Source of the DNA: a virus
Length of the DNA: 21,095 nucleotides
Direction: 5' to 3' (one strand)
Virus record (IMG/VR): IMGVR_UViG_3300030451_004603
Coordinates: 1 to 21,095 of that record
The position numbers and the translations under genes were made by a program. The notes beneath the pieces are model-generated. The model ran no database searches. It was not told where the DNA came from and saw nothing but the letters and a program-made list of their open reading frames with translations. Shown here piece by piece: positions 5,868 to 8,176 of this stretch (the stretch's first letter is position 1; the number at the start of each line of letters is the position of its first letter).

Positions 5868-6128
5868 ATGAAAAACAAAAAAGTCACTAAACTTTGGAAA
5901 GGTCAATATGTATCGATACGAGATTATGAGCTTGAACAAGCAAAAAACTCAGGCGGTATAGTTATTGAGCATAAATCTGAAAAAATGACTCTTGGTCTGG
6001 ATAGATTAAATGTTTTAAAGCCAAGTAGTAGATTATTTAAGTCAAAGACTGGTGGAAGAAGTTATAGGCTTGTTGATGTAGTTTTTGAGCCTGACTTCAT
6101 CAATGAGAAACAAGATGGATTGTTTTGA
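5868..6128 (+). CDS. Basic hypothetical protein, 86 aa
   Basis: ATG at 5868, one base after the previous stop, with AAAGGAATCGTG as a reasonable ribosome-binding site. The protein begins MKNKKVTKLWKGQYVSIRDY and is basic in its first two-thirds, with beta-like KGQYVSIRDYELEQAKN and GIVIEHKSEKMTLGLDRLN. The C-terminus turns acidic and ends in EKQDGLF, another charged tail with a terminal Phe. No family recognised. It is the last gene before the structured element at 6133-6203 and may lie in the same transcript. Confidence 0.75.
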   Translation: MKNKKVTKLWKGQYVSIRDYELEQAKNSGGIVIEHKSEKMTLGLDRLNVLKPSSRLFKSKTGGRSYRLVDVVFEPDFINEKQDGLF

Positions 6129-6132
6129 ATTT

Positions 6133-6203
6133 CCGAGATAGCCGAGACATCCTTATCAGGGGCGAGTGCCTCCTGACTACGCTATCAGCACTCACTATTT
6201 TTT
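6133..6203 (+). ncRNA. Structured RNA element (attenuator or pseudoknot candidate)
   Basis: This 100-bp gap between two plus-strand genes holds a GC-rich block: 36 of 61 bases at 6133-6193 are G or C, in an AT-rich genome. GATAGC (6137-6142) pairs with GCTATC (6181-6186). Inside, TCAGGGGC (6156-6163) pairs with GCC-T-CCTGA (6168-6176) around a GAGT loop. Competing with these, GAGTGC (6164-6169) pairs exactly with GCACTC (6188-6193), and CTGA (6173-6176) with TCAG (6185-6188). A T6 run follows at 6198-6203. The competing set plus T-tract resembles an intrinsic terminator with an alternative antiterminator fold; a pseudoknot through the GAGT loop is the other reading. No known riboswitch class matches. 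Confidence 0.55.
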
Positions 6204-6228
6204 AATATACTTCAATGAGGAATAGAGT

Positions 6229-7164: not shown

Positions 7165-7314
7165 ATGACAATTATAGAAAGAAACTACGATTTTGAGCCA
7201 CCCACTAAAGAAGAATTAGAGTTGCTTGATTGCGAAAAACTATCAGAAAGTGAATTAGAGATGATTGGTTACACTTCTACTGAGGAGTTCTGGCAAAGAT
7301 ATGCGAGTTCTTGA
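7165..7314 (+). CDS. Small acidic hypothetical protein, 49 aa
   Basis: A 49-codon frame from ATG 7165 to TGA 7314, filling the gap between the NinB-like gene and the methyltransferase. It starts MTIIERNYDFEPPTKEELEL and ends in YTSTEEFWQRYASS. It is strongly acidic in the middle and probably helical. It overlaps the methyltransferase start by 14 bases, which would couple translation. Possible small accessory of the methyltransferase, by position only. Confidence 0.55.
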   Translation: MTIIERNYDFEPPTKEELELLDCEKLSESELEMIGYTSTEEFWQRYASS

Positions 7315-8176
7315 TCTTTTCAGTGGTATTGGTGGATTTAGTTTAGGTTTAGAAAAGTGTGGCATGAAAACAGTCGCATTTTGCGAAATAGACGAATATG
7401 CTAAAAAGGTTCTAAAAAAACATTGGTCTGATGTGCCAATATATGATGATGTTACAAAACTATCTAAAGAGGTGTTAGATAATGACAGAATCTCAGTTGA
7501 CCTTATTTGCGGTGGATTCCCATGCCAAGACATCAGTGTCGCAGGGGTCAAAAAGGGTATTGAGGGGGAGAGGTCAGGGCTGTGGAGTGAGTTCGCCAGA
7601 CTTATTAGCGAAATACGACCCAAATACGCAATCGTGGAAAATGTCCCAAACCTCCTTTCTGGAGACAGAGGGAGATGGTTTGGCAGAGTTCTCGGAGACT
7701 TGGCCAAGATCGGGTATGATGCGGAATGGCATTGTATATCAGCTTCCGAACTTGGAGCAAGACACCACCGAGATAGAGTCTGGATCATCGCATATTTGGG
7801 CAACCCCTCAAGCGATGGATGGGATGAGAATCAGTCAGAAACCCAGAGATCGAAATCAACTGTCAAGGAAAGCGAGAGGGGGAGGATGCTCCAATCTGAG
7901 GGAACAAGTAATGTTTCCAACTCCGAACGCATCGGACAATCGAGATCGAGGGTGCATGGAAGACGAATCAGTAAAGAGGAGAATAAAGATAGGGAAGCAA
8001 GTTGGCTTATCCACAGCTGTCAAGGAGACTCGTCAATCTGGCACACTGAACCCCAAGTGGGTAGAGTGGCTAATGGGATTCCCAACAGATCACACAGACT
8101 TAGATGTCTAGGGAACGCAGTTGTTCCCCAGATACCAGAGTTAATAGGAAAGGCGATTATGGATGCTGAGAGTTAA
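7301..8176 (+). CDS. C5-cytosine DNA methyltransferase (Dcm-like)
   Basis: ATG 7301 gives MRVLDLFSGIGGFSLGLE, the family's usual N-terminus; an upstream in-frame TTG would add residues the family lacks. The 291-aa protein has motif I DLFSGIGG (5-12), motif IV GGFPCQDIS with catalytic Cys75, motif VI ENV (113-115), motif VIII RHHRDRVW (154-161), and the terminal GNAVVPQIPELIG (271 onward). The short variable region between motifs VIII and IX (about 168-240) is hydrophilic and low in complexity; it is where the nested gene overlaps. The enzyme would methylate C5 of cytosine at an unknown site, protecting phage DNA from restriction. No cognate nuclease is present. Its stop interleaves with that of the convergent endolysin gene. 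Confidence 0.92.
   Translation: MRVLDLFSGIGGFSLGLEKCGMKTVAFCEIDEYAKKVLKKHWSDVPIYDDVTKLSKEVLDNDRISVDLICGGFPCQDISVAGVKKGIEGERSGLWSEFARLISEIRPKYAIVENVPNLLSGDRGRWFGRVLGDLAKIGYDAEWHCISASELGARHHRDRVWIIAYLGNPSSDGWDENQSETQRSKSTVKESERGRMLQSEGTSNVSNSERIGQSRSRVHGRRISKEENKDREASWLIHSCQGDSSIWHTEPQVGRVANGIPNRSHRLRCLGNAVVPQIPELIGKAIMDAES
7482..8111 (+). CDS. Nested gene inside methyltransferase, +1 frame, 209 aa
   Basis: A complete 209-codon frame lies wholly within the methyltransferase gene, in the +1 frame. ATG 7482 has AAGAGGTG seven bases upstream. The protein begins MTESQLTLFAVDSHAKTS. It then carries LAKYDPNTQSWKMSQ (43-57), ETWPRSGMMRNGIVYQLP (72-89), WATPQAMDG (106-114), FPTPNASDNRDRG (145-157) and NPKWVEWLMGFPTDHTDL (190-207). 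I recognise these motifs from phage proteins often annotated next to or as part of cytosine methyltransferases. Motifs in fixed order, an RBS and absence of stops argue for real coding. Function unknown; a methyltransferase partner or specificity subunit is a guess. Confidence 0.75.
   Translation: MTESQLTLFAVDSHAKTSVSQGSKRVLRGRGQGCGVSSPDLLAKYDPNTQSWKMSQTSFLETEGDGLAEFSETWPRSGMMRNGIVYQLPNLEQDTTEIESGSSHIWATPQAMDGMRISQKPRDRNQLSRKARGGGCSNLREQVMFPTPNASDNRDRGCMEDESVKRRIKIGKQVGLSTAVKETRQSGTLNPKWVEWLMGFPTDHTDLDV

Follow-up and report, generated by a model that had tools for sequence, protein, structure and literature searches.

The window, a virus record of 21,095 bases, carries a structured leader between recombination genes, directly upstream of a small gene whose product resembles phage single-stranded DNA-binding proteins (SSBs; Table 1). 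The first-pass annotation had placed a structured RNA before this gene and described three complementary pairs within 57 bases, i.e., GATAGC/GCTATC, TCAGG(GGC)/(GCC)T(CCTGA) and GAGTGC/GCACTC. Both observations hold, with the helices P1, P2 and PK spanning 6137-6193 and every pair being Watson-Crick. The run of six Ts was said to follow the helices directly; it begins four bases (ACTA) beyond the 3' strand of PK.

Table 1. Coordinates of the leader pseudoknot and flanking genes in the window
Feature	Coordinates	Strand	Remarks
Upstream gene, 86 aa, function unknown	5868..6128	+	Stop codon 6126-6128; ends 8 bases 5' of P1
P1 5' strand, GATAGC	6137..6142	+	Read from sequence; holds UAG 6139-6141
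J1, unpaired, CGAGACATCCTTA	6143..6155	+	CCUU immediately 5' of P2 common to relatives
P2 5' strand, TCAGG	6156..6160	+	Inner extension GGC 6161-6163 in the window only
PK 5' strand in P2 loop, GAGTGC	6164..6169	+	
P2 3' strand, CCTGA	6172..6176	+	Inner extension GCC 6168-6170; bulged T 6171
P1 3' strand, GCTATC	6181..6186	+	Read from sequence
PK 3' strand, GCACTC	6188..6193	+	One base (A) 3' of P1
A/U-rich linker	6194..6228	+	77% A+T; T6 6198-6203; one UUAA; Shine-Dalgarno-like GAGGA 6217-6221
SSB-like gene, 88 aa	6229..6495	+	Acidic tail PDDDIPF; matches PHROG families named single strand DNA binding protein

P2 and PK overlap at 6168-6169 only, the competing part being the inner GGC/GCC of P2, so that P1, a 5-bp P2 and PK can coexist as one pseudoknot. 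The first-pass annotation had left it open whether the folds compete or form a pseudoknot; the pseudoknot stands, as the helices are largely compatible, and mutually exclusive folds are not supported as the working principle, as the competing inner P2 pairs are missing in the relatives, where the P2 loop, mostly of 7-8 nt, holds the PK strand. The switch suggested in that annotation is therefore unlikely as a conserved principle. In the window itself, energies computed without a pseudoknot energy model were -17.2 kcal/mol for P1 with the full P2, -10.0 kcal/mol for P1 with the short P2 and -7.6 kcal/mol for PK alone with its loop, and the two states may, on these model values, be close in energy. 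The folding energy is weakly unusual (z -1.8, with 11 of 200 shuffles folding equally well). The three-helix topology is rarer, dinucleotide shuffling of the 100-base leader (6129-6228) having reproduced it 5 times in 5000; a similar descriptor gave 28 matches in 881,778 bases of shuffled locus DNA (one strand).

Farther downstream, a 209-aa ORF at 7482-8111 lies wholly inside a DNA methyltransferase gene (7265-8176) in another frame. The inner ORF matches PHROG 1008 (E 7.8e-31) and the outer frame PHROG 363 (E 1.6e-84), and the same overlap of two conserved proteins in one stretch is found in L001, L211 and, by ORF list, L028.

Relatives of the leader and covariation

Relatives were fetched from viral contigs through homologues of the SSB, the upstream gene, an HTH_39 gene and the downstream NinB-like gene. 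The close relatives of the window SSB (L001 and L028-L033) all carry a knot of the same plan with different letters, and a scan with the NinB-like gene yielded many further knots. With the family defined by P1, P2 and a loop-to-3' PK in this order, and by a link of 0-1 base before the 3' strand of PK, the arrangement is present at 6137-6193 of the window and in 34 phage records altogether (window included), with one copy per record in all 11 whole records searched.

A covariance model (R1) was built from P1 and P2 only, without PK, using 12 training sequences and leaving out the window, L001 and L211. Among 42 sources it matched 35 places, which represent 32 distinct records since L226, L228 and L235 duplicate the contigs of L032, L033 and L001, respectively; L207-L210, which duplicate those of L028-L031, lay outside this search. 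L001 scored 32.7 bits and the other matches 63-77 bits, most of these in sequences that equal or closely resemble one used for training. Seven sources gave no match, namely the window and L211, which are too diverged, four loci that start downstream of the expected RNA site as judged from the NinB position (L227, L231, L233 and L241), and L232, a true negative in which an L211-type SSB-like gene occurs with no knot. Across 84 other SSB-bearing loci, R1 gave a single match of 12.8 bits (E 3.1).

The exact pattern of the window P2 had no match in viral contigs, and a looser RNA pattern retrieved 66 stretches, of which, by eye and from the descriptor list, only those in contigs already known to carry the RNA combined the topology with family letters. 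Blastn against phage isolates gave no match for the window block, only chance-level matches for an RNA block and, for the L221 RNA plus gene, matches inside the gene only. Among genome contigs, the SSB alignment had no match and the RNA pattern hit 14 stretches, none of which showed P1 and PK by eye; R1 matched three of four genomes from this RNA-pattern search, over model positions 15-40 only, and had no match in 369 genomes of one class in a run without a positive control genome. The view that the leader matches no phage regulatory RNA class is borne out by Rfam 15, where neither gathering nor loose thresholds gave a relevant match and from which the RNA family is absent. Searches of the open-access literature likewise listed no report of this RNA.

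The first-pass annotation had named compensatory changes in homologous regions as the confirming sign, and such changes were found, clearly in P1 and PK and more weakly in P2. In an alignment of 18 distinct sequences, without the window and L211, 94.4% of the 324 cells of P1, P2 and PK are paired and two-sided changes occur at 12 of the 18 pairs. The covariation score was 0.346 vs. 0.142 in shuffles, none of 500 of which reached it, and sliding the partners out of register left at most 47.9% of cells paired. All seven pairs of P1 show two-sided changes. PK, which the alignment model did not include, is paired in all cells and shows them at four of six pairs, each change coming from one or two sequences (L001, L234). 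P2 shows a two-sided change at one of five pairs, and its outermost pair is unpaired in 9 of 18 cells. The count of further pair types was unremarkable (77 of 500 shuffles). Five types of PK were seen (GCTGGT, GCTACC, GCCGCC, GAGTGC and GTGGCT), the last two from the window and L211 and thus outside the 18-sequence count. Judged by this comparison, the pseudoknot is real, with its shape kept while its letters change in the relatives.

Against R1 the window scored 8.0 bits, which is the best match within the 501 bases searched and is correctly placed (E 0.057, valid for these bases only), so its membership is not provable by sequence alone. It shares with the relatives the topology, the CCUU before P2, the one-base link before the 3' strand of PK and the AC after it, and the closest relatives of its SSB (L001 and L028-L033, 71-78% identical) are clear knot carriers. 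We assign the window to the family on the grounds of its architecture, its position and its sister L211. L211 is close to the window downstream, with identity of about 0.9 per 60-column block in a 67-aa gene, and falls to background-level identity across the knot and the SSB gene. All three helices of its knot differ in sequence from those of the window (PK being GTGGCT/AGCCAC), and the three-helix arrangement appeared in 3 of 5000 shuffles of its leader. Knot and SSB gene together look like a stretch that was exchanged while the fold was kept.

The 101-aa gene behind the L211 knot ends in DDDLNDDIPF; its body shows no recognisable relationship to the window SSB, its sole PHROG match is to a PHROG of unknown function, and a structure model of the protein was unusable (pLDDT 40.6). 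From its tail, its place and its relatives beside recombination genes, we infer that it encodes an SSB; those relatives, in Vibrio phages and phage Venkman, adjoin Erf, SAK-neighbouring or Rad52-like genes, and there the gene abuts the preceding one and has no leader. A perfect 10-bp hairpin, ATAGGTACTG/CAGTACCTAT, lies directly 5' of the knot in L211 (858-900) and is absent in the window (alignment, by eye). In L232 (990-1035), an HTH_39-like gene is followed by an L211-type gene with an A/U-rich, UUUAAA-rich leader and no knot, which this record may have lost.

Genes and linker around the RNA

Downstream of the knot, all 34 records have a small gene whose product ends in an SSB-type acidic -PF tail, as the next gene in 30 and as the second in four; in L028-L031, one 63-aa gene stands between knot and SSB. 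The distance from knot to SSB start is 6-104 bases in the 30 next-gene records (the value of 6 is from L214, which has Ns in the linker), and in L001 an internal in-frame start at 3001 matches the SSB start of the relatives. The structure model of the window SSB is of moderate quality (pLDDT 71.8), and a fold search with it found no significant match among solved structures. Two further records, L190 and L191, have a different structured leader about 100 bases upstream of distant SSB-like gene starts, with a GGACTC/GAGTCC stem inside whose loop an upstream TAGGC or AAGG can pair (by eye). This leader is possibly another SSB-leader pseudoknot; it was rejected as a family member because it is not the P1-P2-PK fold.

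On the upstream side, the stop codon of the preceding gene falls inside the P1 5' strand in 26 of the 30 loci examined, and it is retained there, with the base pair kept, where UAG became UAA. The other four are L001, where the stop overlaps P1 by one base, L216, which is cut off upstream, and the window and L211, where the stop lies 5' of P1. The identity of the upstream gene varies: it is HTH_39-like in most records (by eye, with Pfam run for L032 and L001 only), has an Erf-like tail in L234 and is the 86-aa gene in the window. Since the next gene follows the 86-aa gene directly in 15 of 17 relatives (L007-L021), the RNA does not go with that gene. The HTH_39 gene was also considered and rejected as the partner of the RNA, given that L114-L118 have its relatives without the RNA and that the window, L211 and L234 carry the RNA without an HTH_39 gene directly upstream.

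The 17 linkers counted are 72-81% A+T. UUAA occurs at 29 places in them vs. 11.4 in mononucleotide shuffles, a count reached by none of 2000, in a set of related sequences that includes L222 with its linker shortened to 24 bases and L028 with no UUAA. A T-run is absent from most relatives' linkers. Ten records (L215-L220, L229, L230, L237 and L238) share additional linker sequence around AAATTTGAGAGTTATTTTCCACC, which their near relatives L212 and L236 lack, and the long linker of L221 contains an additional GGCG/CGCC hairpin (2611-2684, by eye).

Possible functions and known systems

The knot is probably a control element of the SSB gene that follows it, much like the one in T4. We see about an even chance that it serves, by analogy with gene 32 of T4 and RB69, as a cis-acting translational operator for SSB autoregulation. 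SSB binding, repression and coupling are the steps that we infer: SSB in surplus over the single-stranded DNA to be covered would nucleate on the knot and spread over the unstructured, UUAA-bearing linker, blocking initiation, and single-stranded DNA would titrate SSB away from the leader. A ribosome finishing the upstream gene would open the knot, given the stop codon in P1 in most relatives, and could thereby provide a second input through translational coupling. This reading is supported by the covariation of P1 and PK and the constant SSB-type gene, by an RNA that stays with the SSB while the upstream gene varies, by the UUAA-rich linkers, single copy and T4/RB69-like layout, and by the retention of the knot where the SSB was replaced by an unrelated SSB-like gene (L211). 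It is weakened by the 84 SSB-bearing loci and L232 without a knot, by the extra gene in L028-L031, by the moderate SSB model with no significant structural match and by the relatedness of the sequences behind the UUAA count. A knot before two unrelated SSBs could equally well fit a reader other than the SSB.

A broader version of autoregulation, possible though tentative, is an operator read by its shape that travels with phage SSB genes, in which the same knot in different letters would serve two unrelated SSB-like proteins (window and L211) and join the inputs of upstream ribosomes and free SSB, so that SSB synthesis would track single-stranded DNA. If true, this would be an independent invention of the T4 gene 32 principle in other phages.

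The strongest competitor, which we consider doubtful, is that the RNA is a coupling or stability element bound by no SSB. The knot would restrain initiation or shield the 5' part of the SSB mRNA; ribosomes terminating on the upstream gene would open P1 and thereby set the SSB level. The frequent stop codon inside P1, kept through the change from UAG to UAA, and the retention of the knot before two unrelated SSB-like genes are both consistent with this; however, the window and L211 keep the knot though their upstream stop lies 5' of P1, and the UUAA linker is left unexplained. An unlikely explanation is a leader read by another ligand, either a protein of host or phage that is not the SSB, or a small molecule acting on a riboswitch. 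Several known small riboswitches are pseudoknots, and the RNA here is compact and conserved with an unpaired CCUU(U) core, but all helix letters and much of this core change in the window and L211, and the downstream gene is always SSB-like and never metabolic.

It is very improbable that the repeats act as a DNA-level element, as protein-binding inverted repeats or as a single-stranded DNA structure in replication or recombination. They do sit among replication and recombination genes, and single-stranded DNA was considered by the authors of the STAXI motif for that motif (PMC2864571); an mRNA leader nevertheless accounts better for inverted repeats that interleave on one and the same strand, precede an SSB-type gene in all 34 records and are joined by an A/U-rich linker to the ribosome-binding site (RBS). 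The attenuator with mutually exclusive folds put forward in the first-pass annotation is the least credible reading: the T6, the two-base overlap of the inner P2 extension with PK and the possibly similar energies of the two states speak for it in the window, but relatives conserve neither the T-run nor the competing pairs, and in the window, L032 and L028 no terminator-like site (G+C stem with a T-run within 0-2 bases) was called here. The window resembles an intrinsic terminator in having a G+C-rich hairpin and a T-run; unlike one, it has four bases between the PK strand and T6, and fold and T-run are not kept together in the relatives.

Two known systems bear on the preferred reading, autoregulation by the SSB. 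The STAXI motif (RF01728) is a pseudoknot near SSB and other DNA-handling genes that is repeated two to three times (PMC2864571). The RNA described here is likewise a pseudoknot near SSB genes, yet it occurs singly in contrast to the tandem STAXI, and RF01728 had no match up to E 10 in the records of five of five relatives.

SSB autoregulation through a leader pseudoknot is a classic of T4-like phages, and the present RNA is a second family with clear covariation. This, together with the exchanged SSB of one member and the stop codon that forms part of the knot, allows simple reporters to test in general whether phages gauge single-stranded DNA by way of SSB binding to its own mRNA. PMC535899 states that similar autoregulation by other SSB proteins was an open question. 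In PMC535899 and PMC3014915, the operator of T4 and RB69 gene 32 consists of a pseudoknot and, 3' of it, an unstructured linker that carries UUAAA/UAAA elements together with the RBS; binding of gp32 nucleates at the pseudoknot and then spreads; and the sequence is relaxed while the structure is kept, with the 5' part in T4 overlapping the end of the upstream ORF. This layout, a pseudoknot, an A/U-rich RBS region with UUAA and a phage SSB gene, is also found here, together with relaxed sequence, kept structure and, in most relatives, overlap with the end of the upstream ORF, the likeness being one of layout. In contrast to T4, where the same sources give a pseudoknot of ~28 nt, three helices extend over about 50-57 nt, and, unlike in T4 and RB69, the SSBs are short proteins of other families with a -DDIPF tail, encoded by other phages.
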